Assembly: GCF_016862315.1 (NCBI RefSeq)
Contig: NZ_BOMS01000026.1
Location: 1 to 64,000 of the forward strand
Direction: 5' to 3'
Length of the DNA stretch: 64,000 nt
DNA from: Actinoplanes palleronii
GTDB taxonomy: Bacteria; Actinomycetota; Actinomycetes; Mycobacteriales; Micromonosporaceae
Shown: positions 42,051 to 62,222 of the stretch, piece after piece
Layout of the letters: each line of letters starts with the position of its first letter
Position numbering within the stretch: the stretch's first letter is position 1
The notes under the pieces: model-generated
The model's input: only the letters and a program-made list of their open reading frames with translations
Databases searched by the model: none
What the model was told of the DNA's origin: nothing
Translations under genes and position numbers: made by a program

Positions 42051-43437
42051 TCAGATACGCCATATGGGGGTGAGAGTCCCCCTCCGGACACAAACGTTTT
42101 CCCCACGGTGTGCGCCAAGATCGACTGAGGCGCACACCGTTTTCATTTCCGGCTCGTAGACCAGTTTCAGGTTGAGCTGCCGGTAGATCTCGGCCTTGTC
42201 CTCCGGTTGAGCGGCGCGGATCACCGCCTTGATGTCGCCGACCGCGGTGACGAGCTCCCGGATCTCTTCCGCAGTCATCCGCGGTTGCCCGGTCGGTGTC
42301 TTGATGATCTGCCGTTGCAGCCGGGCCCGTTCGGCCCTTGTCTCGGCGATCCAGCCGGTGACGACGGCCGGGTCGGCTCCGGCATCGAGGGCGGCCCGAT
42401 ACTGCTTGAGTTTGCCGTCACATACCACGATCGCCCGCTGCGCCTCACCCTTCTGCTTCGCGGTCAGGTCAGCCGGCTGGGCGTCGGTCATCACGGTGAT
42501 GGTGTGCTCGATGTTCGTCGGCGAGAACGCGGAGGCGAGCCAGTCGTCGACCGGGCCGACAAGCGCGTCCTCACGCAGGTACACGTTGCCGGGATGCTCG
42601 ATCCGGTTCGCGGCCGCGTACTCCGCCGGGTACCGGCAGCGGTAGTACGGCGCGCCGTGGTTGATCTGGCTCTGCATCCGGCGTTCACACACTCCGCAGA
42701 ACAGACAGCCCCGGAAAACGTACGGATGCCGGGTGCGGTGCTGCCGGTGCGGCGCCCCATAGCGGGCCCGATGCCGCATCACCTCCTGCACCTGCTCGAA
42801 AACCTCCTTGTCGACGATCGCCTCATGGCTCGGCGCCTTCGACATGATCCACTTCTCGGCCGGGTTCCAGCGCGCCAGGTTGGTGTGCCCGAGTGCGACG
42901 TCGTTGACATCGAGCAGCACCTCGTCGGTGCGCTGCTTGTTCCACACCTGATAACCGGTGTACCGCGGATTCATCAGGATGGTGCGCACTGCCACCGCGG
43001 TCCACGCCACCCCGCTGCGGTGGCGGTTACGCGCCCGGTCCTGCGCGGACGGGCAGGGGATCTTCGCCGCGGTGAGCCGTTCCGCGATGATGGCGTCGTT
43101 GAGGATGTCCCAGACCGTGGACGCGGCGACTTCTACCCCGAGAACGAGTAGTTCGCCGTGGATACGCCGGTAGCCCCAGCCGCTGTTCTCCGACGCCAGG
43201 CGCAATACCAGCGCACGGATCGACCGGATCGTTCGTGGCCGCCCGACCCGGCGGGGCCGGGAACTCCCGGCATGCCTGCGGGCGATCAGATCACGGTGCC
43301 GGCGCAACACCGTGTCCGGGCGTACGAGCAGCCGCAGCTGGTGCAGCGCCGTTCGGGGTAGCGGGTGCAGCAGAGCGGCTAGCCAGGCCCGGTCTGCCGG
43401 GTTGAACCGGACCCGTTCGCCATCAACGAACTACGCG
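42051..43437 (-). pseudogene. Chimera: IS3-type transposase fragment fused to serine-recombinase C-terminus
   Basis: One open frame joins two unrelated parts. From about 43437 (just after a TAG) to about 43100 it reads as the N-terminal part of an integrase-core transposase: ADRAWLAALLHPLPRTALHQ, RPDTVLRRHRDLIARRHAGS, RIHGELLVLGVEVAASTVWD. From there it turns abruptly into the recombinase domain of a large serine recombinase: AKIPCPSAQDRARNRHRSGV, VAVRTILMNPRYTGYQVWNK, the zinc-ribbon region YVFRGCLFCGVCERRMQSQI and the coiled-coil tail. The resolvase catalytic domain with its serine is absent, so it cannot recombine DNA. The join looks like a deletion between two mobile elements; a GTG at 43310 or 43313 could start a product. 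Confidence 0.78.
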
Positions 43438-43520: not shown

Positions 43521-45257
43521 TCAGGACGTCAGCGTGGCGTAGTGGCCGCCGATCATCATCAGGCGGTCGTGGGTGCCGACCTCCAGGATCCGGCCGTCGC
43601 CCATGACGACGATCTGGTGGGCGTTGCGGATCGTGGACAGCCTGTGGGCGATGGTGACAGTGGTACGGCCGCGAGCGAGGGCGTCCAAGGCGGTCTGCAC
43701 CGCCCGCTCCGTCGAGTTGTCCAGCGCGCTGGTCGCCTCGTCCAGCACCAGGATCGGCGGGTCGCGCAGCAGTGTCCGGGCGATCGCGATCCGCTGTTTC
43801 TCCCCGCCGGAGAACCGGTGACCACGCGAGCCCACCATCGTGTCGTAGCCCTTCGGCAGCGCCATGATCACGTCGTGTACCTGTGCCGTCCGGGCGGCCC
43901 ACTCCACCTGCTCGTCGGTGGCGTCCGGCCGCGCGTACCGCAGATTCTCCCGGACCGAGGCGTGCAGCAGGTACGTCTCCTGCCCGACCATGCTGATCAC
44001 CCCGACCAGCTCGTTGAGCCGCAGCGCCCGCAGGTCGAACCCGTCGACGGTGATCCGGCCCGCGGTCGGGTCGTAGAGCCGCATGATCAACGCGGCCACC
44101 GTGCTCTTCCCCGAACCGGTCTCGCCGACCAGGGCCAGCGACGAACCGGGCGGCACGTCCAGGGTGATGTCACTGATCGCGGGCTTCTCGTTGTCCGGAT
44201 AGGTGAAACCGACGTGCTCGAACCGCAGGTGGCCGCGCACCGGCAGGGGCAGGCTGACCGGCAGGATCGGGTCGTCGACCTCGACCGGCAGGTCCAGGTA
44301 TTCGAAGATCCGCGCGAACAGCGCTGTCGAACTGCTCCAGGTGACGCCGACGTCGAGCAGGCTGGTCATCGGCTGGAACAGCCGGCCCTGCAGGGCGGTG
44401 AAGGCCACCACCGTGCCGATGGTCAGGTCGGCGGCACTCGGCACGATCCCCGCGCTCAGGTAGATGAGCGCCGGAATGGTAGCGAACATGATGTTCATCG
44501 TGGCGCCCCGCCAGCGCCCGGCGAGCTGCGAACGCAGTTGTAGCTCGACGAGACGAGACGACGACCCGGCGAAGCGTTCGATCAGGGCCGGGCCGGTTCC
44601 CATGATCTTGCTGAGCTGCACGCCGCTGATCGACAGGCTCTCCTCGACGATCACGTTGAGGTCGGCGAGTTCCCGCTGGCGTTTGCCGGTGATCTCCTTG
44701 CGCAGCCGGGCCATCCGGCGGGCCAGCAGCAGCGCGGGCGGCAGCGCCAGCATCGACACCAGGAACAGCTGCCAGTTCAGGGCGAGCATCGCGATCGACG
44801 TGGCGACAGCGGTGGTCACGTTCGACGCGATCGAGGTGGCTGTCGAGGTGACCACCGCCTGCATGCCGCCGATGTCGTTGGTGATGCGCGACTGGATCTC
44901 ACCGGCCCGGGTGCGGGTGAAGAACGCCACCGACTGGCGGTGCAGGTGGGTGAAGACGTCCACCCGCAGCGTGTGCATGACCCGCTGGCCGGTCCCGGTG
45001 GCGATCCAGGTCTGGGTGATGCCGAACACCGCCGTCAGGACGGCGACCATGATCAGGCCGCCGACCAGCCAGCCGAGCAACCGCACGTTCCCGGTGGGCA
45101 ACGCACGGTCGATGATCTCCCGTACCAGGAACGGGGTGGCCATGTTCGTCAGCGACGACGCGACGATGATGGCCATGACCGCACTCAGCCGCCGCCAGTG
45201 CGGTTTGAACAGCAGCGCGATACGGCGCGGCGAGACGTCGGTGGAGCTAGACGACAC
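43521..45257 (-). CDS. ABC exporter, fused membrane and ATPase domains
   Basis: A 578-residue half-size ABC exporter. Six membrane helices lie at about residues 20-310 (for example AVMAIIVASSLTNMATPFLV). The ATPase domain has Walker A LVGETGSGKSTVAALIMRLY, signature FSGGEKQRIAIARTLL, Walker B ILVLDEATSALD and the H-loop TVTIAHRLSTIR. It belongs to the MsbA/lipid and peptide exporter type. The GTG at 45257 overlaps the sulfotransferase stop by 11 bp, so it is the last gene of the NRPS operon and most likely exports the NRPS product. The chimeric recombinase gene lies just downstream. Confidence 0.9.
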   Translation of the reverse strand: MSSSSTDVSPRRIALLFKPHWRRLSAVMAIIVASSLTNMATPFLVREIIDRALPTGNVRLLGWLVGGLIMVAVLTAVFGITQTWIATGTGQRVMHTLRVDVFTHLHRQSVAFFTRTRAGEIQSRITNDIGGMQAVVTSTATSIASNVTTAVATSIAMLALNWQLFLVSMLALPPALLLARRMARLRKEITGKRQRELADLNVIVEESLSISGVQLSKIMGTGPALIERFAGSSSRLVELQLRSQLAGRWRGATMNIMFATIPALIYLSAGIVPSAADLTIGTVVAFTALQGRLFQPMTSLLDVGVTWSSSTALFARIFEYLDLPVEVDDPILPVSLPLPVRGHLRFEHVGFTYPDNEKPAISDITLDVPPGSSLALVGETGSGKSTVAALIMRLYDPTAGRITVDGFDLRALRLNELVGVISMVGQETYLLHASVRENLRYARPDATDEQVEWAARTAQVHDVIMALPKGYDTMVGSRGHRFSGGEKQRIAIARTLLRDPPILVLDEATSALDNSTERAVQTALDALARGRTTVTIAHRLSTIRNAHQIVVMGDGRILEVGTHDRLMMIGGHYATLTS

Positions 45258-45966
45258 TGCGGGCCCACTTGCGCAGTACGTTGTAGTCCGGCCGATGATG
45301 CCAGTAGCAGTCGTACAGGAACCTGTCGTTCTCGGTGGTGGACCGGTAGGCACGCTCGGAACGGGTGAAGCCGGTGCTGCCGGCCGCGTCCCGGTGCCAC
45401 TGCGAGGTACGGCTCCAGACCTCCTGATCGCCGGCCTGCCAGGACAGCGACGACGCCAGGAACGGGATACCGGCGCCCCGGCAGTACCGTTCGATCGCAC
45501 CCGCGGCGTCGGTCAGCAACTCCTCGGCCTCCACCACGTACGGCTGTTCCCCGGTCACCTCCCGGACCCGCCGCGCCATCTCCACCTGATGTCCGTAACC
45601 GATCTCCTCGCAGACCATGTCCGCGTTCATCGCGTAGTGCGACGGGATGACCCGCCGCGGATCACGGATGATGAAGGTGTGCCGCCCCACCTGCGGGATC
45701 CGCTCCCCGCCGTTGCCGAGATAGTCGTACTCGGTGGTCTCCTTGACGAACACCGGATGGTCCATGGCCCGGTCCTCGAGATGTTTCAGCAGCTCGTCGT
45801 GGCTGGTCACGGTGTGGTCGCCGACCTCGATCCGGCCCTGCACGACGATGCTGGAGAACGGTTCGTGGAAGACCTCGTGGTCACCGCGTTCCAGCATCAT
45901 CCGCAGGAACGCCGTCGACATCGACCGCGGGGTACCCCAGAGGAACAGCAGGTCCGGGCCCGTCAC
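45247..45966 (-). CDS. Sulfotransferase-like protein in the NRPS operon
   Basis: A 239-residue protein of the P-loop sulfotransferase superfamily. The 5'-phosphosulfate loop is LFLWGTPRSMSTAFLRMMLE, and the 3'-phosphate region is TFIIRDPRRVIPSHYAMNAD, so PAPS binding is likely. The residues HEPFSSIVVQGRIEVG in between belong to the substrate side. The GTG overlaps the MbtH stop by four bases and its 3' end overlaps the ABC gene by 11 bp, so all four genes are one transcript. It could transfer sulfate to the phenol of a tyrosine unit of the NRPS product; this is inference from context. Confidence 0.8.
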   Translation of the reverse strand: MTGPDLLFLWGTPRSMSTAFLRMMLERGDHEVFHEPFSSIVVQGRIEVGDHTVTSHDELLKHLEDRAMDHPVFVKETTEYDYLGNGGERIPQVGRHTFIIRDPRRVIPSHYAMNADMVCEEIGYGHQVEMARRVREVTGEQPYVVEAEELLTDAAGAIERYCRGAGIPFLASSLSWQAGDQEVWSRTSQWHRDAAGSTGFTRSERAYRSTTENDRFLYDCYWHHRPDYNVLRKWARSVV

Positions 45967-46169
45967 GCCGTCCGCCCGATCAGGCTCGCCGGGCGGATGT
46001 CCCACCAGGACTCCTCGACGTAGGCCAGGCACTCGTCGCGGCTCTGCGGCCCGAAGACCTTGCGCCAGCCAGCCGGTACGTCGATCACCTCCGGCCACAG
46101 CGAGTGCTGTCCCTCATCGTTGACGAGCACGAAGAACTCGATGTCGGTACGTTCGAACGGATTGGTCAT
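45963..46169 (-). CDS. MbtH-like protein
   Basis: A 68-residue MbtH protein. The family signature is complete: [20 protein letters not shown] with [20 protein letters not shown] and EESWWDIRP. MbtH proteins bind and activate adenylation domains of NRPSs. Its ATG overlaps the NRPS stop by four bases (ATGA). The gene sits between NRPS and sulfotransferase, confirming that the NRPS depends on it. Confidence 0.95.
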
Positions 46170-49100
46170 GCCGTCGGCCCTTCGGTAGGAGTGAGGCGCA
46201 GGTGCTCGGACACCCGCGCGCCGATGATCTGCAGCACCTCGGCCCGAGCGAGCTGCCGGTGCTTGTAGTCGAGGGCCATCACGTCGACCGCGCCGGAGAC
46301 GTACGGGAGCCACATCGGTGCGAAGTGGTGCTCCTGCGGCCGGGCCGCGACCGCCTCGACGAACAGGATGTCGCCCTGGAAGACCGAGAACCGGTGACTG
46401 TCGGCGATCTTGATCAGGTTCTCGTAGAAGTCGACGGTGGCCCGGCCCTTCTGCCGCATCAGGAACGAATAGGGCCCCTGCCGCTCACGCAGGTGCTCGT
46501 ACAGGATGTCGCCGGTCAGGTGCGGGCGCTCAGAAGCGGGAAGGTTGAGGTCGAAGTGGTGTGCGAGGGCGTTCAGCCGCTCGACCAGGGTCACCGGGCG
46601 ATGCGGCGTCGGACGGGCGTCGAGCATCGCGACCAGGGCCACCTCGTGACCGGCACGCTGCAGCTGCACACCCATCTCGTGGGCGATCTCCCCGCCGGTG
46701 CTCAGGCCGAGCAGGTGGTAGGGCCCCTCCGGCTGGACGAGGCGGATCTGCTGGACGTAGTCGGCGGCCAGCGCGGCCATGGTCGCGGGCAGTTCCTCAC
46801 CCGGGTCCAGTCCGCGGGCTTGAACCCCGTACACGCCGAAGGTCTTCGGAATGGCGTTGACCAGCGGATAGTAGAGCCAGCTGAGTCCGCCCAGCGGGTG
46901 GACGCAGAACAGCGAGACAGGGCTCGACCCGGTGCGCAGCGGCACCACCACGTCGAGGGTCGCCTCCTCGGGCTCGTCGGCGAGCCACGTCGCCAGGTCC
47001 TTCGCGGTCGGCACCGCGGAGACCACCAGCGGGTTGACGGCCACCCCGAACTCGACCTCGATCGCCCTGGTGAGCGCCTCAACGGTCTCCCGGCCGCCGC
47101 CGAGGTCGAAGAGGTTGTCCTCGGCGGCCACCGAGTCGACGCCCAGGGCCTGCGCGACCAGGGCACGCATCCGGTCCTCGGCCGAGGTCCGTTCCGGAGA
47201 CGCGTCCGGCAACGGGGGCAGCTCGCCGACACGGTCGGCCAGATCGGCGAGTGTCAGGCTCTCGAAGACGTACCGGAAGGGCAGTTCCACCCGCATCAGC
47301 GTCCGGACCTCGTTGACCATCTGCATCGCCAGCAGCGAGTGGCCGCCGAGTGCGAAGAAGTTGTCGTCACGGCCCACCCGGTCGACGCCGAGCAGGCTGC
47401 GCCACACCTCGGCCAGGGACTCCTCGACCGGGCCGGCCGGCGGCACGTGGGCCCGTTCGCGGTCGGCCGTGCCGGGGTCGGGCAGCCGGCGGCGGTCGAC
47501 CTTGCCGTTGACGGTGACCGGGAAGGCCTCCATGGCCACAAACGCCGACGGCACCAGGTGTGCGGGCACGACCGCGGGCATCTGCCGCCGCAGCCGGACC
47601 GGGTCGGGGTCGAAGCCGGTGACGTACGCGACGAGGCGTTTGTCCACACCGTCGCCGTGCACCATCGCGACCGCCTGCTCGACACCGTGCAGTCCGAGCA
47701 GCGCGGCCTCCACCTCGCCCAGTTCGACCCGTACGCCGCGGATCTTGACCTGTTCGTCGTCGCGGCCGAGGAACTCGATCGCGCCGTCGGACCGGCGGCG
47801 GGCCCGGTCACCGGTGCGGTACATCCGCTCGCCTGGCGTGAACGGGTCGGCGACGAACCGCTGCGCGGTCAGGGCCGGTCGGTTCAGGTAGCCGCGGGCC
47901 AGCGGGCGCCCGGCGATGTAGATCTCGCCGGGCATGCCGAGCGGCACATGGTCCAGGTCCGGGCCGAGCACGTAGACCCGTGCGTTGGCGATCGGGACGC
48001 CGATCGGCGCGCTGCGGCCCTCGTCGTCGTCACCGCACAGCCAGCTGGTCACCCCGATGGCAGCCTCGGTCGGCCCGTACAGGTTGTGGATCAGCGTCTC
48101 GGGCAGCGCCTCGGCGAAGCGGCGGCGCAGGCTGTGGGTCAGGGTCTCGCCACCGGCGATGATGTGGCGCAGGCTGGTGCAGCCGACGGCGCCGGGTTCG
48201 CGCAGGAACATCTCCAGCATCGACGGGACGAAGTCGACGAAGGTGACCTGTTCGCGCTGGATGAGGTCGACCAGGTAGCGGGGGTCGCGGTGCCCGTCGG
48301 GCCGGGCCATCACCAGGGTCGCCCCGTTGGTCAGCGCCCAGAGCAGCTCCCACACCGAGGTGTCGAAGGTGACAGGCGACTTCTGCAGCACCCGGCCCTC
48401 GGCGCCGAGGGTGAACCTGTCGTCCATCCAGGCGATCCGGTTGCTGACCGCCGCGTGGACGTTCACCACGCCCTTCGGGGTGCCCGTCGACCCGGAGGTG
48501 TAGATCGCGTACATCGCGTCCTCGCCGTCCACCGCCACACCGGGGTCGTACACCGGCTCGTTCGCGGCATCGCCGACGTCGAGCAGCAGGTGGTCGTGAC
48601 CGGACAGCCGGTCCCGGGTGGCAGCGTGTGTCACGACGACCTGGACGCCGGTGTCGGCGATCATCGAGGCCAGACGGGCGGGCGGCAGGTCCGGGTCGAG
48701 CGGGACGAACGCACCACCCGACTTACCGATCGCGAGGACCGCCACGACCAGGTCGAAACTCCGTTCCACGCTCACGCCGACCAGCACGTCACGGCCCACG
48801 CCGAGCGCGATCAGGCGATGCGCCAGCCGGTTGGCGCGGCGGTTCAGTTCCCGGTACGACAGGCCGGCGCCCTCGAAACGTACCGCTGTCGCGTACGGTT
48901 TCCGGCGGGCCTGTTCCCGGATCAGCTCGTGCGGCCAGCGCCGGTCGCCCCGGTCGCGGACCTCTCCGGCGCTCATCGCCTCGACGGCGAGCCGTTCCGG
49001 CCCGCTCATCAACGGCAGGACACTGATCGGTACGCCGGGTCGCGCCACCGCCTCGGTCAGCAGCCGGCCGAGCATGGCGACCATCCGCTCGGCGGTGTCG

Positions 49101-52099
49101 TGGTCGAACAGGTCACCGGCGTACATCACCTCACCGCCGATACCGACCGGCCGACCGGCCTCATCGAGGAACTCGACGAACTGGATGCTCAGGTCGAACT
49201 TCGCCGACCCGGATCCCACACCGACCCGCTCCGAACGCACCCCGTCCAGACCGAATCGCGCCGACTTGCCGACCTGCGAGGCGACCATCACCTGGAACAG
49301 CGGATGCCGGCCCGGTACACGGGGCGGGTTCAGCTCCTCGACGACACTCTCGAAGGGCACGTCCTGGTTGCCGAACGCCAGCAGATCCTGCTCCCGTACC
49401 CGGTCGATGAGCTGGTCGAACGACGGATCCCCGGACAGGTCGGCCCGCAGCACCAGGGTGTTGACGAAGAAACCGACCAGATCCTCCAGGGCCTCGTCGA
49501 CCCGGCCGGACACCGGCCACCCGAGCGGGATGTCGGTACCGGCACCGAGACGGAACAGCACCGCGGCCACCGCCGACTGCAACACCATGAAAGTGGTGGC
49601 ACCGTGCCGCCGCGCCACCTCGGCTACCCGCTCGTGCGTCTCAGCGGGCAGCGACACCGGCACCGGCCGGCCGCGATACGTCGGTTCGGCAGGCCTGCCC
49701 CGGTCGACGGGCAGCGCGATCTCGTCGGGAACACCGCCGAGCAGCTCCTGCCAGTACGCGATCTGCGGCCGCGCCAGCCGAACCAGGTCACGCTGCCAGA
49801 CCGCGAAGTCGGCGTACTGCACCGGCAGCTCGGTCCACCGCGGCGGATGCCCGGCCCGGCGTTGCTCGTACGCCTCGGACAGGTCACGCATCAGCGGTTT
49901 CATCGACCCACCGTCAGCGGCGACGTGGTGCACGACCAGAACCAGGACGAAGTCCTCCGGCCCGACCTCCAGCAGTCGCACCCGCAGCGGGATCCGCGCC
50001 GTCAGGTCGAAGCTCTCGCGGACCATGCGCGTGACGGTGTCCTGCCAGCCGGTCTCCGCGATCGACTCGCGAACCAGCAGCTCGCCCAGCTCGGCCATCG
50101 GCACCACCTGCTGGTACGGCTGCCCGTCCAGCACCGGGAACCGGGTACGCAACGGCTCGTGCCGCCGGACCACATCGGTCACCGCAGCCCGCAGAGCAGC
50201 CTCGTCCAGGCCGTCGGCAAGCCGGACCACCACCGGGATGTGATACGCCCCGTCGCCACCACGCAACTGCGCGGTCAACCACATCCGCTGCTGCGGGTAC
50301 GACAGCGGCACCCGTTCCGAACGCACCTGACGCCGCAGCACCGGCCGGACACCGGTCTTCAACACCGACACCCGCCGGGCCAGGTCAGCCAGCGTCGACG
50401 TCTCGAACAGGTCCCGGACCGGCAACTCCACGTTCATCACCGACCGGACCCGGTTCACCAGCTGCGTCGCCAGCAGCGAATGACCGCCGAGCCGGTAGAA
50501 CTCGTCGGTACGGCCGACCCGGGTCACCCCGAGGATCTCCTCCCACAACCGGGCCAGGCTCTGCTCCACCGCGCCGACCGGAGCGACGTAGTCGCGCTGC
50601 CCCGACTCGGCCCCCGGATCCGGCAGCGCCTTCCGGTCGACCTTGCCGTTCACCGTCACCGGCAGCACGTCGAGTTTCACCAGCACCGACGGCACCAGAT
50701 GCTCCGGCACCAGCCCGGCCAGATCCCGGCGCAGTGCGGCCGGTTCCGGACCGCCGTCGTCGGTCACCACGTAGGCGACCAGCCTGCGGTCCGCGCCGTC
50801 GCCGTGCGGCACGACCACCGCCTGGTCCACTCCCGGCAGGCTCATCAGCGCCGACTCGATCTCACCCGGTTCCACCCGGACACCCCGGATCTTGACCTGG
50901 TCGTCGGCGCGGCCCCGGTACTCCAGCTGCCCGTCGGGCCGCCGCATCACCACGTCACCGGTGCGGTACATCCGCTCACCGGGCGCCCCGAACGGGTCCG
51001 CGACGAAACGATGGGCGGTCAGCCCGGTCTGCCCGGCATACCCACGGGCCACCCCGGCCCCCGCCAGGTACAGCTCACCAGTTGTCTGTTCCCGCAGCAG
51101 GTCGTCCAGCACGTACGCCCGCACGTTGGGCAACGGCCGCCCGATCGGCGGCACCCCGTCACCGGCCAGCGGGTCACTCACGGTCGCCGCCACGGTGCCC
51201 TCGGTCGGCCCGTACGCGTTGAACATGCGCCGTTGGCGACACCAGCGAGCCGCCACCGCCGGCGGGCACGCCTCCCCCGCCACGATCAGCGTCACCGACT
51301 CCGGCAGTCCCCCGGCATCCTCCACCACGGACAGCAGCGACGGCGGCAGCGTCACGTGGGTGACCCCACGGCTGCGTACCAGCTCCACCAGTTCCGGGCC
51401 GGGCACCAGCCGGGACCGGTCCGTCACCACCAGGGCCGCACCGGACAACAGCGTCGTCCACACCTCGGACACCGAAGCGTCGAAACTGACCGACGCGAAC
51501 TGCAGCCGCCGGCAGCCCGGCCCCAGCCCGAAGATCTCCGTCTGCGACCGCACCAGGTTCCGAGCACTCGCATGGGTCACTACGACGCCTTTCGGTACGC
51601 CCGTCGACCCTGACGTGTAAATCAGGTAGGCGGCGTGGTCCGGCAGCAGCGCCTCGTGCCGGTCGGCGTCCGTCACGGCGCCACCGTCCAACCCGGAAAG
51701 CTCGCCCGCGGTCTTCGGGTCGTCGAGCACCACCTCGGTGATCGCGGAAGACGCTTCCAGGCGCGCGCCGGCGGTCGTGACCACGCATCGGGCCCGCGCG
51801 TCGGCCATCATGAACTCTGCCCGCACGGCCGGGTAGGCCACGTCCACCGGCACGTACGCCCCGCCGGCCTTCGACACCGCGAGGGCGGCCACCACGAACT
51901 CGACTCCGCGGGGCATCCGCAGCGCCACCACTACCTCGGGGCCGACCCCCTGGTCGATCAGCAGCCGGGCTAATCGGTTGGATCGCTCGTCCAGCTCCGC
52001 GAACGAGACCGTCGCGTCGTCACACACCACGGCGGTCTCATCGGCGCCGCGCTCCACCTGCGCGGCGAACATCTCCGGCAACGTCCACGGATCGCTCAC
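46166..52099 (-). CDS. Two-module nonribosomal peptide synthetase with thioesterase
   Basis: 1977 residues: A1 (1-500), PCP1 (Ser about 539 in [10 protein letters not shown]), C (about 600-1035, HHVAADGG near 725), A2 (1060-1545), PCP2 (Ser about 1586 in [10 protein letters not shown]), a third carrier-like domain (about 1650-1710) and TE (Ser about 1799 in GLSTGGE, Asp in MLDARPTP, His in [10 protein letters not shown]). The third carrier reads [13 protein letters not shown], with no serine for phosphopantetheine. Aligned by hand with GrsA, A1 gives the code D-A-S-T-I-A-A-V-A-K, close to tyrosine or beta-hydroxytyrosine, and A2 gives D-T-W-D-I-G-L-I-G-K, which I cannot assign. There is no C domain before A1, so synthesis starts at A1 and yields a dipeptide or, by iteration, a multimer. 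GTG start with GAGGAGG upstream. Confidence 0.93.
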
Positions 52100-53867: not shown

Positions 53868-54482
53868 CCTATTACCCCCTCATCGCCAAGACGGAGACGA
53901 AGGCATCAGGGAACGACCGCACAAACTTCCGCCGGGGCCAACTCCGTGCCTGAACGACGCGATCGTCGTCACCCGCTCCGCCACCGGCAAATCGGCACGA
54001 TTCCTCCAGAGGGGTTGTGCCCATGGCTTCGGACACCGTTCGACGTCGCGTCGCGCTGTCGTGACCGGGTCGAACACCCGGGCCGGCGAACTCGTGCTTG
54101 TCGGAGTCGCCCCGCACGGGGGTATCGCACCGACACGGGCAAAACTGCCATCGATCGGTGGCACGCCGAGTGCATTGTGGCCAGATCCCGGCCTGCCCCG
54201 GTCATCGTCGGCAACACCGGCTCGAGCCCTCACGTACCGGCGAAGGCTTGGTACCGCAGCAGCACTGGGTTCGCTTTTCGCCGTCGGTGGCAATGCCGTG
54301 CTCGCCACCGACGGCGTCCAGGCGTGACCGGGTGATGGCGTGGTGGTTGTCGGGGAGACGTGGGCGGGGCGAGGGTCTGCCAGGGATCCGCAGCAGGCCC
54401 TCGTGAATCGCGCTGTCGATGACCGAGCGGGTCGGCGCCTGGGGATCTCAGGAGAGTCGCTACTGCTGCCGATGCCGGCGCG
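53868..54482. other. Non-coding, decayed stretch
   Basis: Several short overlapping frames exist on both strands but none shows a start with ribosome site, family motif or steady codon bias across its length. It looks like degenerate former coding DNA between the ATPase remnant and the amidohydrolase gene. I see no repeat or RNA gene. Confidence 0.45.
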
Positions 54483-55643
54483 TCACTTCACGGGTACTTT
54501 CATTTTGAACAGTTTCTCCGCGTTTCGGAAAGCAATCTTTTCCTTGTCTTCGCGTGGCAGATCGACTCCGCGGAACCAGTCGGTCTGCTCCTTTATGTCC
54601 GCGAACGGATAGTCGGTTGCGAACATCACTCGATCCACGCTTATGTGCTTCAGCAGGAGAGTGAGCAGATGGGTCTGGGGGAATGCGCTGGTGGTGATCC
54701 AGAAGTTGTCCTGGAAGTATTGCGCGAAGGGCTTCTTGAGCGAGCTTTCGGTCGGCTCGCCCATGTCATTGACGATCCGCTCGTAGTAGAAGGGAAGACC
54801 TTCGCCCATGTGGCCGATGATGATCTTCAGTGTGGGAAATCTGTCGAAGACCCCGTACGTGATCATCCGAATGCACTGGGTCAGCACCTCCTGGTGCCAG
54901 CCATATCCGGATCCACTGAAAATGTAGGGTTGGAACTCTTTCGTGTACTGAGAGCGCGTGGTGTCGTAAAGGATCTTGAAGATCTCGTCAGCTGGATAGC
55001 CGGGGTGCAGGTAGATCGGCACATCGAGAGCAACGGCACGTGCCAACACCGGCTCGAAATCAGGATGATCGAGATACTTCTTAGTGATGTGTCCGTTGGT
55101 AAGTGCGCCCAAGAAGCCATCTTCCTTAACCGAGCGTTCCAGTTCGTCCGCCGCCGCCTCCGGGCTCTGCAAGGGCAGGGTGGCGAAAGCCTTGAAGCGG
55201 CCCGGATGTTTGGCGATCGGCCCTTCTGCAAGTAGCCGGTTGAGACGATAGGCAAAGTCGACGCCCTTCTTCCCAGGGACATTTTGTACTGACGGCGTAT
55301 GGGCAGAGAGGATTTGAACGTTGAGTCCCCCCGTGTCCATGTCGTCGATGCGGCGTTGCCCTAGATCCGCAAGACCAATCTCCGCAAGGAACGCGATATG
55401 ATCCGCATTGATGGAGTTCAGCTTCAACAACTCGGGAGTTGAAAATGTCTCCTCCGCGCCGATGAAGGGCAGGTCCCGGTCTCGCTGGTAGATGTCCGCG
55501 GTACTGTCCGCGTTCTGGTCCGGAGCCTTTTTCGGATTCTTGTCGTCGCTCACTGCCGAGGTGATGGCATGTGTGGACACGCCGGCGCCGATACCGAGTG
55601 CTGTGGCTGCGGCCAGGAAGCTACGGCGTCCCATGGAGTTCAT
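54483..55643 (-). CDS. Exported (Tat) amidohydrolase / decarboxylase-like protein
   Basis: A 386-residue protein. The start MGRRSFLAAATALGIGAG is a twin-arginine signal. The mature part is of the amidohydrolase_2 type (ACMSD, gamma-resorcylate decarboxylase and relatives): VPIYLHPGYPADEIFKILYD, IIGHMGEGLPFYYERIVNDM and RVMFATDYPFADIKEQTDWF contain the metal-binding His and the catalytic Asp of this family. The usual N-terminal metal H-x-H is not obvious after the signal. The base composition is visibly lower in GC than that of the neighbours, suggesting acquisition from elsewhere. It is divergent from the MMPL exporter with the 49-bp inverted repeat between them. Confidence 0.8.
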   Translation of the reverse strand: MNSMGRRSFLAAATALGIGAGVSTHAITSAVSDDKNPKKAPDQNADSTADIYQRDRDLPFIGAEETFSTPELLKLNSINADHIAFLAEIGLADLGQRRIDDMDTGGLNVQILSAHTPSVQNVPGKKGVDFAYRLNRLLAEGPIAKHPGRFKAFATLPLQSPEAAADELERSVKEDGFLGALTNGHITKKYLDHPDFEPVLARAVALDVPIYLHPGYPADEIFKILYDTTRSQYTKEFQPYIFSGSGYGWHQEVLTQCIRMITYGVFDRFPTLKIIIGHMGEGLPFYYERIVNDMGEPTESSLKKPFAQYFQDNFWITTSAFPQTHLLTLLLKHISVDRVMFATDYPFADIKEQTDWFRGVDLPREDKEKIAFRNAEKLFKMKVPVK

Positions 55644-55929
55644 GTCAGTCTCTCTTCCGGTTTTGTGTGGTGCGGTGTCCGTGCGGCATCCGTCGGCAAG
55701 ATGCGTCAGATCGAGCCTTCGTCGCCCAGGTCTCCACCCGAGCCGTGCCCACCGACGACCTCGGCGCCCGGTCCCACTGAAGCGGTGCCGGCCGGGACCC
55801 ACAGGCGGCGACCGGGTACGCCGTCGCCAGAGTCACGGTGAACGCTCCGAATCGGATAGACCGGGTCGCGCTTTCCCTGACGCCGCCGCATCCACTGTCA
55901 TCACCAGCTTCTTGTCGACGGATCACCTC

Positions 55930-55978
55930 GCCTGTCTGACGCCGAATTCGTACCTAGTGAATCTGAGACGAACGTTAG
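55930..55978 (+). repeat. Left arm of 49-bp imperfect inverted repeat
   Basis: This 49-bp segment (core AGTGAATCTGAGACGA, 55956-55971) recurs in inverted orientation at 56492-56540 with 42 of 49 bases identical. It lies between the amidohydrolase gene and a transposase fragment. It may be an operator/promoter copy or the end of a lost element. Confidence 0.75.
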
Positions 55979-56124
55979 AAGTGCTCAGGTCGGTCGTCCG
56001 AGCCAGCCGGGGCGCCCCGGCGCATGCGTCCGCGTGTTGGACTTCTACGCCTGCCCGACCGCGCGAGTACGGGCCGTTGCGTTCTCGCTCTGCGAACCGG
56101 TGAGTTGCGATGATGCGCGGTGAT

Positions 56125-56240
56125 CGGCCCAGATGGCTGTTCGAGCTCACCGATGCGGGCGGCTGCCGCGGCGCGCGGGCGGCTGGTCCTGGCCGTGGAC
56201 GTCAGTGCCCGGCTGCGCCTGGACGCCTACGACACACAGT
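56125..56240 (+). pseudogene. Fragment of a transposase gene
   Basis: A short segment spread over two frames reads FELTDAGGCRGARAA and GRLVLAVDVSARLRLDA. The pattern RRAAGRLVLAVDVSxWLRPDAxTSPxR is common in one group of actinomycete transposases. No more than about 35 residues are left. It sits between the two arms of the 49-bp inverted repeat; the remaining DNA of 55644-56491 has no other recognised gene. Confidence 0.45.
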
Positions 56241-56491
56241 CGCGGCGCGCCTGCTGCGGCCCACTCGGGACCACATCGCCCTGATGCTGTCCGACCCGGA
56301 CGTCGTGACCGCGGCCACCCGGTCGGCGGACCTGCTGCGGAAGGTGCGCGCACTCCTGCCGGGCCTCGTCGACCACGCGGTTGCAGCCGCGTCGACCGCA
56401 CGGGTCAAGACCGTCACCGCCCGCACGGACCGGTCGACGTCGACGTCGTCCTCATCCGACCCAGCGGCTGTCAACCGGTCTGAGCAGCACA

Positions 56492-56540
56492 TTAATGATC
56501 GTCTCAGATTCACTCGGTACGAAGTCGGCGTCGGACAAGC
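56492..56540 (-). repeat. Right arm of 49-bp imperfect inverted repeat
   Basis: This is the inverted partner of 55930-55978. It ends 26 bp before the ATG of the MMPL exporter gene, so it overlaps its promoter or leader and could carry a repressor operator. Confidence 0.75.
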
Positions 56541-56566
56541 GTGGTAACGCTGGCGTAGGAGGAAAG

Positions 56567-58720
56567 ATGGCAGTCAACGTAGCTCCGCCCGAGGAAACGC
56601 CGCCCGGCCGGGTACCGAGCCGGTGGGTACCGTGGCTGGTGATCGGCTTGTGGGTGGCGCTGGCGGCGGTCATGGTGCCGCTGAGCGGGAAGCTGAGCTC
56701 GGTGACCAAAGACAGGGCCGTGGACGCCCTGCCCGCCAGTGCCGACTCCACCAAGGTGGCGGCACTGGAGGACAAGTTGCCCGGCGGTGAGGAAAACACG
56801 TTCGTCTTCGTGTACCACCGTGCCAGCGGTGTCACCGCCGACGACCGTACGGCGGTCGAGCGTCATTACAACACCATGGCCACGCGCTACCCGCCGAAGG
56901 TGACGCCGCCGGCTGGCGAGAACGACGAGGGCCCGCCGACGCAAATCTCCAACGACGGCAAGGCCATGATGTTCACCCTCAACGTGAGCACGAGCTACGG
57001 CGAACCGGCGGTCCTCACCGGCCCGATGCGTGACATCGCGAAGGACCGCCCCGCCGGGCTGGACCTCGACGTGACCGGCCCGGCAGGGATCGACGCCGAT
57101 ATGGACGCTGTCTTCGACGGCATCGACGTGCAGGTCTTCATCACCACCGTCATCGTCGTCACCATCCTGCTCATCCTCACCTACCGCAGCCCGGTGTTGT
57201 GGTTCATTCCGCTGGTGGCGGTGGGTGTGGCCGCGCTGACCTCGATGGCGACCGTCTACCTGCTCGTCAAGGGCTTCGGCCTCGTGATCAACAGCCAGAA
57301 CTCGGCGCTGCTGACGATTCTGGTGTTCGGCGTCGGCACGGACTACGCGCTGTTGCTCATCGCCCGATATCGGGAGGCACTGCACCAACACGAAAACGTC
57401 CGAGTCGCGATGCTCCACGCACTACGCGGCGCGGCACCGGCCATCGTCGCATCTGCGGCCACTGTCATCGGCGGCCTGCTCTGCCTGCTCGCCGCGGACC
57501 TGAACGAAACCCGCGGGCTGGGCCCGATCGGTGCGGCCGGCGTCCTGTGCGCCCTGGTGGCCATGCTGACCCTGTTCCCGGCGGTGCTCGTGGTGCTCGG
57601 CCGGCGGATCTTCTGGCCGGCCATCCCCCGGTTCGGCACGGCCATGCAGCAGAAGCCCGGGCTGTGGGGACGCCTCGGCGCCGCCATCAGCCGCCGCCGT
57701 TGGGTGGCGACGCTCGCTTCGCTGGGAGTCCTCGGCGTGCTCACCGTCGGGCTGACGGGCAACACCAGCATCCTGCGGGAGCAGGACCAGTTCCTGTCCA
57801 CGCCGGAATCGGTCACCGGCTTCACCGTTCTGCGCGAGCACTTCCCGGAGCTCGGGGGCCAGCCGATGACGGTCTTCACGCGGGCGGCATACCAGGAGCA
57901 GGTTCTCGACGTCGTCAAGCACACCCCCGGCGTGGCACAGGTCGAAACGGGTGAGACCAAGGAGGGCTGGGTCGACATCTCCGTGTTCCCGAAGGACGCG
58001 CCGGACACCACTGCGGAGTACGACACGATCAGGCGGGTACGCACCGCCGTGCACACGGTGAACGGGGCGGAAGCGCTCGTTGGCGGGCCGAGCGCAGAGC
58101 ACCTCGACACTGACGTGACCACCAGGCGCGATCAGAAGGTGGTGATCCCGCTGGTACTCGCCGTCGTCCTGATCATCCTCGGGCTACTACTGCGCGCAAT
58201 CGTGGCCCCGCTGATGCTGATGGCCACCGTGATCGTCTCCTTCGCCGCAGCCTTCGGCGGCAGCGTGTTCATCTTCGAGACGGTCCTCGGGTTCAAGGGC
58301 ATCGACTACTCGGTGCCTCTGCTGGCCTTCATGTTCCTAGTGGCGCTCGGCGTCGACTACAACATCTTCCTGACCCACCGGGCCCGGGAAGAGACCGTGC
58401 GCCTTGGCACCAGAGACGGCATCCTCAAGGCACTCTCCGCCACCGGCGGCGTCATCACCTCGGCCGGCCTGGTCCTGGCGGCCACGTTCGCGGTCCTCGT
58501 CTCACTTCCGCTGGTGATGCTGGTCGAGCTCGGATTCTTGGTCGCCTTCGGTGTGCTGCTCGACGCCCTGCTGGTGCGGTCGGTCCTGGTGCCCGCCCTC
58601 ACCCTGCTGATCGGCCGCCGGATCTGGTGGCCCAGCCGGCTGTCCCGGCCAGCGGCGGAGACGCCGCCGACAGCACGGCACTCGCTCGCCGACGACCAGG
58701 AGCCCGTACTGCAACGGTGA
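56567..58720 (+). CDS. MMPL-family RND exporter
   Basis: A 717-residue transporter with two copies of a six-helix block, each preceded by an extracytoplasmic domain. First block: VFITTVIVVTILLILTYRSP, then FGVGTDYALLLIARYREALH. Second block: KVVIPLVLAVVLIILGLLLR and FLVALGVDYNIFLTHRAREE. The G-x-D-Y motifs with their Asp-Tyr pairs are the proton-relay signature of actinomycete MMPL/MmpL and SCO-type lipid or antibiotic exporters. AGGAGG precedes the ATG by four bases. The right arm of the inverted repeat is located in its upstream region, and control by a repressor is likely. No TetR gene is next to it. Confidence 0.92.
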   Translation: MAVNVAPPEETPPGRVPSRWVPWLVIGLWVALAAVMVPLSGKLSSVTKDRAVDALPASADSTKVAALEDKLPGGEENTFVFVYHRASGVTADDRTAVERHYNTMATRYPPKVTPPAGENDEGPPTQISNDGKAMMFTLNVSTSYGEPAVLTGPMRDIAKDRPAGLDLDVTGPAGIDADMDAVFDGIDVQVFITTVIVVTILLILTYRSPVLWFIPLVAVGVAALTSMATVYLLVKGFGLVINSQNSALLTILVFGVGTDYALLLIARYREALHQHENVRVAMLHALRGAAPAIVASAATVIGGLLCLLAADLNETRGLGPIGAAGVLCALVAMLTLFPAVLVVLGRRIFWPAIPRFGTAMQQKPGLWGRLGAAISRRRWVATLASLGVLGVLTVGLTGNTSILREQDQFLSTPESVTGFTVLREHFPELGGQPMTVFTRAAYQEQVLDVVKHTPGVAQVETGETKEGWVDISVFPKDAPDTTAEYDTIRRVRTAVHTVNGAEALVGGPSAEHLDTDVTTRRDQKVVIPLVLAVVLIILGLLLRAIVAPLMLMATVIVSFAAAFGGSVFIFETVLGFKGIDYSVPLLAFMFLVALGVDYNIFLTHRAREETVRLGTRDGILKALSATGGVITSAGLVLAATFAVLVSLPLVMLVELGFLVAFGVLLDALLVRSVLVPALTLLIGRRIWWPSRLSRPAAETPPTARHSLADDQEPVLQR

Positions 58721-58734
58721 ACGCGCCGGCACGG

Positions 58735-58950
58735 ACGAGATCCGGGACGGGTAGCCAGCCCGTCCCGCGTCTTCTCCCGTCCCCGGCGTGGGTCTGCCCA
58801 GAACGACGCCGATCTGGCAGTTCTCGATCCGCCTCGCGGCCCCGGAATACTGCCGGGCCACCCCGGCGGGGTGCATCCCGTCTGGTGACAGGTCGCCGGC
58901 CTGCTCGGTGAAGGTCCAGCCGTCGTGCATCCGTGAGCACGGCAAAGCGG
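58735..58950 (-). pseudogene. Remnant of an IS701-type transposase
   Basis: The minus strand reads DGWTFTEQAGDLSPDGM and, after an internal deletion, AGVARQYSGAARRIENCQIG. These match NGWTLAEQAGDDTPDSM and AGVQRQYTGTSGKIDNCQIG of the intact transposase at 16034-17182. Only these two N-terminal pieces are left. No terminal repeats are recognised. Confidence 0.75.
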
Positions 58951-59026
58951 CAGCGTCTTTAATACTGACCTCAGGTTGATCGGGGAGGATGAGCGTCGAA
59001 GGCATCGATCAGAGGGGTGGGCGGGC

Positions 59027-59719
59027 GTGCGGATCATGATCGCGGATGATGAGGCGGCCATCCGTGAGTCGCTGGAGCGGGTGCTCCAGGTCGAGGGGTA
59101 TGACACCAGCACCGTCGCCAACGGTCTCGCCGTACTCGACGGGGTCGCCGGGGCCGGCGGTGACACGCTGGATCTGCTGATCCTGGACGTGATGATGCCC
59201 CGCCTCGGCGGGTTGGAGACCTGCCGGCGGTTGCGGGCGGCGGGCCGGGATCTGCCGGTGTTGATGCTGACCGCCCGGGATCAGGTCTCCGACCGGGTCG
59301 CGGGCCTGGACGCGGGCGCGGACGACTATCTGCCCAAGCCGTTCGCCACCGAGGAGTTGCTGGCCCGGGTGCGGGCCCTGCTGCGCCGGCGCGCGCCGGC
59401 CGGCGGGGAGTCGCCGGTCCTGTCGTTCGCCGACGTGCGGCTCGATCCCGACCGGTTCGAGGCGTGGCGTGGCGGGCGGTCGCTGCGCCTGACCCGGACC
59501 GAGTTCTCCCTCCTGGAGGTCCTGGTGCGCAACGCGACCCGGGTGCTGAGCCGCGACGCGCTGTTCGAGGCGATCTGGGGTTTCGACATGAGCACCACCG
59601 CCAACAACCTCCAGGTGTACGTGAGCTATCTGCGCCGCAAGATGGAGGCCGAGGGTGAGCCCCGGTTGATCTACACGCTGCGCGGACTGGGATACACGTT
59701 GCGGGAGACTCCTCCGTGA
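59027..59719 (+). CDS. OmpR/PhoB-type response regulator
   Basis: A 230-residue two-component regulator. The receiver domain has the acidic pair in [15 protein letters not shown], the phosphoacceptor Asp in [13 protein letters not shown] (about residue 54), the Thr in VLMLTARDQ and the Lys in [17 protein letters not shown]. The C-terminal winged helix is marked by [20 protein letters not shown] and [20 protein letters not shown] with [20 protein letters not shown]. It resembles MprA/TrcR-type regulators. A GTG at 59027 after AGAGGGG is the start. It overlaps the histidine kinase start (GTGA). Confidence 0.92.
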
Positions 59720-61164
59720 CCAGGTCCGGGGGCCGGGGGCCGCGTCGGTGGATCCGGTGGTGGCGCCGGCAGTCCTTGCGGACCAGGATGACGGTGATCG
59801 CGGCGACCGCCATCGCGGTCAGTGTGTTCGTGTCCTTCCAGGTGGCCAGCGAGCTGATGGACCGCAAGCTACGGGCCACCGCCGCGGATCAGCTGTACGC
59901 CGACTCCCGCGTCCTGGCAGCCAACGCGGAGCGCGCCGGTCTGGCGCAGGTCCCGCTGCCGCCGTACCCGGGATCCGGCAGGCTGGTGCGGGTCATCCTG
60001 CCCGACGGTTCGACCCGGACGCCGGTCGGCCAGCCGGCGCTGCCCCCGGTCAGCGAGGACGCCCGGCGCGTGGCGCAAGGCGCGGCTACCGACCTGCTGG
60101 AGTCGACCGACTGGAACGACGGCTACCGCGTCTACACGCTGCGGTCGGGCGACGGCGCGGTTCAGGTGGCCGACCTTGCCGACGACAGCCCGATAAACGA
60201 GTTCGGGTTCGGCATGCTGTTGATCGGGCTGTTCTGCGTGGCCGGTGGCGCCCTGGTCGGGCGGGCCGTGGCCCGGACCGGGCTGGCACCGATCGACCGG
60301 CTGACCGCCGCCGCGGTACATGTCGCGCAGACCCGGGATCTCGACGCCGACATCCCGGACGAGGGCGGCGGGGAGATCCGGCGGCTGACCCAGTCGATCA
60401 ACAACATGCTCACCGCGCTGCGGGACTCCCGGCAGGCCCAGCGGCTGCTCGCCGAGGACGCCGCGCACGAGCTCAAGACCCCGCTCACCAGCCTGCGCCT
60501 CAACGTCGAGCTGCTGATCCGGCTCGATCGGCGCGGCACCCTGGACAGCGCGCTGCCGGCGGAGAGCCGGACCCGGCTGCTCCACGATCTCGGCGCCCAG
60601 CTGGCCGAGCTGAGCACCCTCGCCGCCGAGTTGACCGAGGTGGCCCGCGGCGATGTCAGCGACGAGAGCACCGAGCTGATCGACCTCGCCGACGTGGTGG
60701 TGGCCGCCGCGACCCGGGCCCGTTCGCGCATGCCCGACATCGAGGTCACACTCGACGTGAGCTCCGTGTGGGTGAGTGGGCGGCCCGCGGCGCTGCAGCG
60801 GGCTGTGCTCAACCTCATCGACAACGCCGGCAAGTGGTCCCCCGCGGACCAGCCGGTCCAGGTCCGGCTCTTCGCCGAGGGCGCGTGGGCGGTGCTCGAG
60901 GTCGACGACGGCGGCCCGGGTATCGACGCCGCCGACGTACCGCGGGTTTTCGACCGGTTCTACCGTGCCGACAGCGCCCGGGCGTTGCCGGGATCTGGTC
61001 TCGGACTGTCGATCGTGCAGCGGGTCGTCGACGCCCACGGCGGCCGGGCCGGCGCCGCCCGCTCCGCACGCGGTGGCGCGCTGCTTCAGGTCGGCCTTCC
61101 GGCCGCCTCCCCGCCCACCGCGAGCGAGTGGTTGACCGCCGGGGAGGACACCGCGGTGCGCTGA
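59716..61164 (+). CDS. Sensor histidine kinase
   Basis: A 482-residue membrane kinase, partner of the response regulator before it. Two membrane helices ([20 protein letters not shown] and [20 protein letters not shown]) bracket an extracytoplasmic sensor of about 110 residues. A HAMP linker ([20 protein letters not shown]) leads to HisKA with the phosphoacceptor His in [20 protein letters not shown] (about residue 251). The ATP-binding domain has [34 protein letters not shown] and [18 protein letters not shown]. It is of MprB/TcrY class. The ligand is unknown. Confidence 0.93.
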
Positions 61165-61460
61165 TGCGCCTCCGGGGTGCGGAGGGCGCGGCCGCCGACC
61201 GGCCGCGGAGGTCGTCGGCGCCGGTGTCCTACGGGTCGCTGCCGGCCTGCCCGGGACGCCGCACGAGACTGTGCCGCCGGGTGCTGCCCGGCCTTTGAAC
61301 CTGCGCTGGCGGCAGGCCCCGGAAGAGACAAGGATGCCGGCTTCGACGCGGCGCCTTGCCTGCGTCGCCGGGGGTGCCGCGCGCTTTGACGGTCGATCAA
61401 GGACAGGAGCGGACGCGCGGGTCTCGCGGTCTCGAGATGGCAAAGCCCGCCTCGGTGTGG
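61165..61460. other. Intergenic stretch between convergent genes
   Basis: The 296 bp between the kinase stop and the convergent SDR stop hold no frame with family motifs or a ribosome site, and I see no hairpin as long as the other terminators in this window. Confidence 0.4.
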
Positions 61461-62222
61461 TCAGGCCTGCGGTGTCGGCAGAGCGATCACCTGGCGCAGG
61501 TTGACGTGGCGCGGCCGGGAGACGACGTACCCGATGAGGTCGGCGATATCGCCCGCACTCAGCGCGGGCATCGCCTGGAACATCGCCCCCAGCTGGGCGG
61601 AGAGCTCGGTGTTGTCGACGTGTCCGCCCAGCTCGGTGTCGGTCAGGCCGGGCTCGATGTTGGTGACCCGGACCGCCTCCGCGCCCAGCTCCGTGCGCAG
61701 CGAGGCGGAGAGGTGGGTGAGCGCCGCTTTGGTGGCGGAGTAGACGGCGTACTGCGGGAAGAGGGCGTGCGCGCCGATGGAGGAAATGTTGACCAGGTCG
61801 GCGGTGCCGCCGGCGGCCGCGGCGGCGCGCAGCCCGGGCAGGAAGGCGCGGATGACGCGCAGCGCGCCGGTCAGGTTGGTGTCGATCATGCGGTTCCACT
61901 CGTCCTCGCGGCCGTCGCCGATCGGGTTCGGCAGCATCACCCCGGCGGCGTTGACCACCAGGTCCGCCCGGCCGTAGGCGGCCTCCACGGTGGCGGCCGC
62001 GGCCGCCACCGAGACCGTGTCGGTGACATCGACGGGTACGGCCAGCGCACTCCCGCCACCAGCGGTGATCTTGGCGGCCACCTCGTCCAGGCGGTCCCGG
62101 CGACGGGCGAGCAGGGCGACCCGGGCTCCGCCGGCGGCGAGCAGGAGTGCGGTCGCCTCGCCCATGCCGCTGGCGGCTCCGGTGATCACGGCGGTCCGGT
62201 CGTGCAGCTCGTAGTTGTTCAT
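61461..62222 (-). CDS. Short-chain dehydrogenase/reductase
   Basis: A 253-residue classical SDR. The cofactor motif is TGAASGMGEATALLLAAGGA, the structural NAAG is in VVNAAGVMLPNPIG, the catalytic Ser is in LVNISSIGAHALFPQ, and the YSATKAALTHLSASLRTELG box gives the Y-x-x-x-K pair. After the second strand ALLARRRDRL, with Arg residues, NADP(H) is likely. The product of similar genes reduces small ketones or aldehydes. It is divergent from the MmyB-like regulator gene, an arrangement seen often in actinomycetes where the regulator controls the SDR. The ATG at 62222 or GTG 62228 can be the start. Confidence 0.9.
   Translation of the reverse strand: MNNYELHDRTAVITGAASGMGEATALLLAAGGARVALLARRRDRLDEVAAKITAGGGSALAVPVDVTDTVSVAAAAATVEAAYGRADLVVNAAGVMLPNPIGDGREDEWNRMIDTNLTGALRVIRAFLPGLRAAAAAGGTADLVNISSIGAHALFPQYAVYSATKAALTHLSASLRTELGAEAVRVTNIEPGLTDTELGGHVDNTELSAQLGAMFQAMPALSAGDIADLIGYVVSRPRHVNLRQVIALPTPQA

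Follow-up and report, generated by a model that had tools for sequence, protein, structure and literature searches.

A small four-gene synthetase unit of Actinoplanes with a conserved serine-less carrier domain, a candidate source of a sulfated dipeptide

What would a nonribosomal peptide synthetase (NRPS) of only two modules make when its gene is followed by those for an MbtH-like protein, a sulfotransferase and an ATP-binding cassette (ABC) exporter, and do these few genes form a unit of their own? These questions are raised by a locus of about 8.6 kb in Actinoplanes palleronii, which lies in the first 64,000 nucleotides of contig NZ_BOMS01000026.1 (hereafter the window) of an 11.17 Mb assembly (GCF_016862315.1). 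We found the same four genes clustered in seven other genomes, and they very probably constitute, judging by sequence comparison, a self-contained unit common to some Actinoplanes-type soil bacteria and passed between strains. All four genes are on the minus strand and overlap successively by 4, 4 and 11 bp; their start codons are inferred, and longer open reading frames (ORFs) are possible for the MbtH, sulfotransferase and ABC genes. The genes and the domains of the NRPS (A, adenylation; T, carrier; C, condensation; TE, thioesterase) are as follows, PAPS being 3'-phosphoadenosine 5'-phosphosulfate.

46166-52099, minus strand: two-module NRPS, A1-T1-C-A2-T2-T3-TE, 1977 amino acids (ORF and Pfam)
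50600-52099, minus strand: A1 adenylation domain, code DASTIAAVAK, aromatic, probably tyrosine (motif-anchored)
50345-50575, minus strand: T1 carrier, serine present in LGGHSL (motif)
49004-50317, minus strand: condensation domain with HHxxxDG motif (Pfam and motif)
47465-48949, minus strand: A2 adenylation domain, code DTWDIGLIGK (motif-anchored)
47225-47449, minus strand: T2 carrier, serine present in LGGHSL (motif)
46955-47194, minus strand: T3 carrier-fold domain, LGGGR, without the phosphopantetheine serine in 8 of 8 copies (Pfam and motif)
46169-46945, minus strand: terminal TE, GLSTGG (GLCAGG in two relatives), Asp 27 residues past the nucleophile, His present (Pfam and motif)
45963-46169, minus strand: MbtH-like protein, 68 amino acids (PF03621)
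45247-45966, minus strand: PAPS-type sulfotransferase, 239 amino acids (PF19798)
43521-45257, minus strand: ABC exporter, permease-ATPase half-transporter, 578 amino acids (Pfam; best NCBIfam score MsbA, below the cut-off of that family)

Pfam matches were well above their cut-offs throughout: AMP-binding twice, Condensation once, PP-binding three times and Thioesterase in the NRPS, MbtH in the second protein (PF03621, 96.1 bits against a cut-off of 27), Sulfotransfer_5 in the third, and ABC_membrane and ABC_tran in the fourth. The A, T, C and TE domains carry the catalytic motifs of a type I modular NRPS, with the exception of T3. A preliminary description of this DNA had given the same gene content, strand, coordinates and overlaps, which the ORFs and Pfam matches bear out, and the gene arrangement supports the operon logic that it proposed; its two modules also stand, but it had missed the third carrier between T2 and the TE.

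Sulfotransferases of at least 64% identity were present in 8 of 67 genomes of the genus (the window's own and seven others), the next best being 50% identical, and 300 genomes drawn from the family, with members of the genus among them, held nothing further above 46%. In the seven other genomes the NRPS has the order A1-T1-C-A2-T2-T3-TE, and the MbtH, sulfotransferase and ABC genes are clustered with it. When 84,980 species genomes were scanned with the sulfotransferase alignment, a scan in which entries for the genome of the window, or for genomes very close to it, may be missing, 64 loci were recovered, and the four-gene copies among them were five records only, all matching genomes already in the set. 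In pairwise blastn comparisons, DNA similarity between copies stops at or near the edges of the unit. Extra DNA upstream of it is shared over about 700 bp by the window and G016 and about 1 kb by G004 and G057, with smaller extensions elsewhere (genomes are numbered G and sulfotransferase loci L), and one 326-bp match links unrelated places in G041 and G004. The ratios of nonsynonymous to synonymous substitution (dN/dS) for the parts of the unit were at most 0.62, except in a near-identical pair, where the sulfotransferase gave 1.28 and another ratio was undefined. Apart from that 1.28, such ratios indicate that the parts are under purifying selection and, since the genes have been conserved in this way in seven other genomes, the set of four is a conserved unit far beyond chance.

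Over the NRPS, MbtH and sulfotransferase genes the genome of the window is 98.4% identical to G016, versus 92.7% in the rpoB region (some 4.8 kb, edges included). Between G016 and G013 the order is reversed, with 96.3% for rpoB and 90.4% for the operon. The closest operon to that of G004 is in G057 (84.6%) and its closest rpoB in G024 (94.6%), its rpoB being 90.0% identical to that of G057. Without transfer it is difficult to see how the operon could be more similar than rpoB, and the trees are discordant; the unit has very probably been transferred horizontally. A cluster of this kind was not found described among the papers listed from the open-licence literature on Actinoplanes sulfotransferase, MbtH and NRPS genes, sulfated NRPS dipeptides, tyrosine sulfate and NRPSs, or two-module clusters of Micromonosporaceae, and the accessible part of one paper (PMC3364876) held no such two-module cluster. 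Within that literature the remark of the preliminary description that no cluster with only these four genes had been described met no counterexample, and the copies probably represent an uncharacterized, horizontally spread, minimal family of NRPSs with a sulfotransferase.

The specificity codes of the two A domains were read by anchoring on core motifs, whose positions we assume to be tied to GrsA numbering. Across the eight copies the A1 code is DAST[IV]AAVAK, with a single I/V exchange; it is close to DASTVAAVCK, which we take to be a code for tyrosine or beta-hydroxytyrosine. The substrate of A1 is probably aromatic, namely tyrosine, and the tyrosine- or beta-hydroxytyrosine-like code noted in the preliminary description is thus kept in all copies. 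The A2 code, DTWDIGLIGK, does not vary among the eight copies at the nine positions that were compared. A2 groups with serine-type domains (96%, quick tree) but its pocket differs from theirs, and its combination of D278 and G301 presumably resembles arginine, lysine and glutamine codes; the side chain of the second residue is probably polar or basic. Assigning A2 more closely by its code failed, the D278/G301 resemblance being all that was obtained. None of twelve code strings sought in the open-licence literature was found, a weak negative, as even DASTVAAVC, reportedly a published code, was absent.

The feature most apt to surprise a specialist is T3, an invariant and constrained carrier that cannot carry. 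In it LGGHSL has become LGGGR, with arginine in place of the serine in 8 of 8 copies, while the T-TE pairs of other NRPSs have the serine in 19 of 19 cases. Measured against the window, the dN/dS of T3 was below that of T2 in seven of seven comparisons (0.00-0.52 versus 0.23-0.62); all seven rest on the window sequence and are therefore not independent. The predicted structure of T2-T3-TE was poor (mean predicted local distance difference test score, pLDDT, 53.5, from six sequences), with moderate values in the carrier parts, where T3 keeps the carrier helix pattern and its second helix begins at the site of the lost serine. Judged by its sequence, T3 must be unable to carry substrate in the usual way and would act as a structural or docking surface; T2 would then have to pass the dipeptide on to the TE, and T3 would be kept for something else. 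A tentative proposal, which we consider unlikely to be correct, is that T3 is a conserved docking module rather than a relic and serves to recruit the sulfotransferase or to gate the TE, the dipeptide thus being sulfated on the assembly line before release. If this were true, the recruitment of a tailoring enzyme in trans in such a manner would be new for an NRPS, its logic being comparable to that of the X domain of glycopeptide synthetases. Among the open-licence papers listed on inactive carrier domains, none evidently treats a carrier like T3.

In the sulfotransferase alignment R14, S17, T18, E35, K75, R101 and S109 are the same in each of 42 rows, and we take these motifs to be of the PAPS-binding kind, with a glutamate as a possible base. 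Its predicted model has a pLDDT of 94.8. The Pfam family, the 5' and 3' PAPS motifs and the predicted fold, whose structural matches include CurM, tyrosylprotein sulfotransferase and Teg12 (see below), agree in predicting a PAPS-dependent sulfotransferase, as the preliminary description had it, and a match to the APS kinase family is present above its cut-off elsewhere in the same genome.

The explanation that we prefer, and to which we give about an even chance, is a self-contained, horizontally transferred unit that makes a tyrosine-X dipeptide, O-sulfates it, most likely on the phenol, and exports it. A1 would load an aromatic amino acid, most likely L-tyrosine, onto T1, the C domain would join this residue to the one loaded by A2 on T2, and the TE would free the dipeptide by hydrolysis or cyclization, with the MbtH protein supporting the A domains. 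The sulfotransferase, using PAPS from the host, would sulfate the dipeptide, most likely at the tyrosine phenol, while it is still bound to the carrier or once it has been released, and the ABC protein would export the product.

Several observations weigh against this explanation. The A1 code is tyrosine-like by comparison with general code tables only. In three of the eight copies (G024, G021 and G041) the ABC gene faces the other way, and a transcript common to the four genes is therefore not a general feature. In a Foldseek search with the sulfotransferase model the two top matches had the Fap7 kinase fold, ahead of any sulfotransferase; CurM, olefin-synthase sulfotransferase domains, another Fap7, retinol dehydratase, tyrosylprotein sulfotransferase, SULT7A1 and Teg12 came next, and the similarity was weak overall (E about 1e-5 and query template modelling scores of about 0.4-0.5 for these first matches, scores of about 0.37-0.54 among the 50 matches listed). 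A sequence search of the PDB with the sulfotransferase gave no meaningful match, two at E values up to 1 being taken as chance, and an attempt to assign the enzyme to a solved structure in this way failed. Two further points concern the place of the sulfate. In L076 and L078, the nearest other sulfotransferases with a complete NRPS, the last A domain groups with A1 (99%, quick tree), and this shared lineage favors the A1 residue; however, the code there is DAG[FL][ST]GGIAK, and kinship with A1 does not establish a common tyrosine. In the wider sulfotransferase family an A domain with D278 and G301 was found in 60 of the 70 loci holding a full A domain, which points to the second residue, the one loaded by A2.

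That the sulfotransferase acts on a side-chain hydroxyl or amine of the A2-loaded residue, and not on tyrosine, is in our judgment possible but rather unlikely. Counted by domain, D278 and G301 occurred in 64 of 90 A domains near family sulfotransferases versus 9 of 56 in a control and 0 of 30 among top-scoring A domains, a background biased to serine and threonine domains, for which reason the control was drawn as a second one. The control comprised 20 NRPS stretches chosen by T-TE, one of which was too short, leaving 19 with 56 A domains of at least 420 amino acids (shorter ones were dropped), and was weighted toward apparent catechol siderophore clusters. The code types DTWDIGLIGK, DSWD[VIL]G[GTA]IGK and DVFDFGGVTK fall in separate branches of the quick A-domain tree, which also speaks for the second residue. 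By locus, however, the control gave 8 of 19, which means that the per-domain figures overstate the excess, and the nearest relatives, L076, L077 and L078, do not have the D278/G301 code. A domains shorter than 420 amino acids were left out of the A-domain tree and of the 60/70 and 64/90 counts, as were L032, L033 and L035-L039 (which share a genome with a named locus or belong to the near-copy G016), but other same-genome pairs drawn from two collections, and near-copies, were kept in both counts, which are therefore not independent and are dominated by a single conserved type of operon. A phenol is a usual acceptor of sulfate. Because of this, and because of the precedent of AerL in aeruginosins, the tyrosine phenol is, by analogy, our first choice, held with modest confidence; the phenol sulfation put forward in the preliminary description thus gains from the A1-type lineage of the nearest relatives and loses from the A2-like domains of the wider family. 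The presence of aerL correlates with sulfate on phenolic hydroxyphenyllactate (Hpla) or 2-carboxy-6-hydroxyoctahydroindole (Choi) according to the part of the source available (PMC10744761). As far as that text extends (PMC10744761), the cyanobacterial aeruginosin clusters resemble the unit in combining an NRPS, a sulfotransferase and an ABC transporter, but belong to another phylum, make a tetrapeptide and have many tailoring genes, and AerL is likened here by description.

Three other explanations take the sulfate, or the whole unit, differently. An N-sulfonated monobactam, in which the sulfotransferase would sulfonate a carrier-bound diaminopropionate (Dap) and a special TE would close a beta-lactam, is suggested by the joint presence of NRPS, sulfotransferase and TE and by the TE nucleophile, which is serine (GLSTGG) in six of the eight copies but cysteine (GLCAGG) in two, each other's closest operons. 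Sulfazecin (cluster proteins SulM and SulN) is the precedent, being likewise a small NRPS product modified by a PAPS sulfotransferase, with a cysteine TE; the accessible portion of the report ties such beta-lactam formation to a TE with Asp at position II, the motif Gln-Cys-Asn and two out of three arginines, together with a last A domain of the Dap type and the presence of a sulfotransferase gene (PMC11298585). The cysteine TEs made this a strong lead early on, but it fell on the position-II Asp and the Gln-Cys-Asn motif: in 8 of 8 copies the TE has its Asp 27 residues past the nucleophile (position I as we read it) and a His near its end, and it has no Gln-Cys-Asn motif. Moreover, the four conserved genes include none for Dap and the NRPS has two modules, in contrast to three for sulfazecin (PMC11298585, as far as seen in part), and we regard a monobactam as extremely improbable. 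Decarboxylative elimination of the CurM type, with the sulfate as leaving group and a final product free of it, is suggested by CurM and the olefin-synthase domains being among the highest sulfotransferase matches of the model; these matches are weak, however, and spread over many sulfotransferases, the TE triad is ordinary, and no second enzyme of the conserved unit evidently uses a leaving group, so that we think it quite improbable. A decaying remnant of a cluster, with no product, would account for the lost serine of T3 and for an adjoining recombinase ORF without a catalytic-domain match (see below), but the low dN/dS ratios, the other inspected catalytic motifs, which are intact, and the recent transfer of the unit as a whole make this very improbable. 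Aziridine-type sulfate chemistry was also considered, and a search of the open-licence literature gave nothing on it.

The sulfotransferase tree has three parts and an outgroup of three. One part joins the four-gene copies to L076, L077 and L078 (85/78, without a star), although the six rows with four genes reach 100/100 by themselves; another is a partly NRPS-linked clade (97/96); and the third (99/99) is a clade whose loci have an A domain some 4 kb upstream, two of them, L082 and L114, with a profile-checked Family 3 encapsulin. The sulfotransferases of L076 (Streptomyces hyaluromycini) and L078 (Actinoplanes lutulentus) are 53% and 50% identical to ours and, as here, stand directly behind an NRPS that ends in a TE; these loci differ in their glycine-type first A domain, and L076 in further genes such as those for an APH-like protein and a P450. 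L081-L128 and others share a conserved operon type in which the sulfotransferase is preceded, at a distance of about 4 kb, by an A domain with the code DSWD[VIL]G[GTA]IGK; by the spacing of the A domain, this type is widespread in Actinomycetota and also present in Ramlibacter and Trinickia. Both L082 and L114 also encode an aldo/keto reductase, and an A-T-reductase was checked in L114. A domains with the code DVFDFGGVTK or DVGDFGGVTK are near related sulfotransferases in L040, L041, L043, L052, L057, L058, L066, L067, L071, L098, L124 and L133. Sulfotransferases are common in Family 3 encapsulin operons, according to an incompletely available source (PMC8346489). Such operons resemble the unit in having a sulfotransferase of about 40% identity, from a neighboring clade, and an A domain of similar code nearby, but differ in an A-T-reductase (L114) in place of the C and TE domains, an aldo/keto reductase and the shell, all of which our unit lacks; the encapsulin model NF041188 was not among the NCBIfam matches listed for the four genes (the best 25 for the NRPS and for the ABC protein) and six neighboring ORFs.

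The unit adjoins integrase and recombinase genes, and the preliminary description had suggested on this ground that it might be mobile. The higher identity of the operon than of rpoB supports transfer of the unit, but not these genes as its means: the 20-kb surroundings of the seven other copies contain nothing related to the integrase, the recombinase or the intervening ORF (best E 0.11), and the same integrase does not accompany every copy, as it would in an integrative element. DNA matches to the left flank fall elsewhere in those genomes (E up to 1e-40). The supposed recombinase gene (42051-43430, minus strand) matches Recombinase and zinc-ribbon models, but Pfam detected no catalytic resolvase domain in it. 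With no relatives near the other copies and no catalytic match, the adjoining region is probably not the vehicle of the unit. The first third of this ORF (43093-43423) matches a stretch of about 330 bp that occurs at least seven times in G016 and at least once in G013, and its sequence suggests a fusion of mobile-element fragments. To the right, the flank at 54400-62000 is 75-90% identical over its main stretches in G024, G021, G041, G004 and G057 and only about 70% in G016 and G013. Its orthologous pieces sit apart in the first five of these genomes, and the region to the right of the operon has thus been rearranged. Five ORFs scanned in the flanks of L032 and L033 matched a hydrolase, an acyltransferase, a major facilitator superfamily transporter and a luciferase-like oxidase, and one had no match.

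In these genomes, then, we have a very small, complete-looking NRPS unit, with four genes in eight genomes, a near-invariant pair of codes and clear edges. Because of its small size and clear edges, expression in a clean host should be easy and mass spectrometry could give the answer. The TEs of L037 and L038 show a natural serine-to-cysteine difference in the nucleophile among orthologues of one synthetase, and this pair is a ready-made test of the effect of such a swap, just as the unit itself offers a test of the role of a conserved dead carrier. If its product were confirmed, it would be a bacterial sulfated dipeptide, and it would give a characterized member of the family of NRPS-linked sulfotransferases that also occurs in Family 3 encapsulin clusters.

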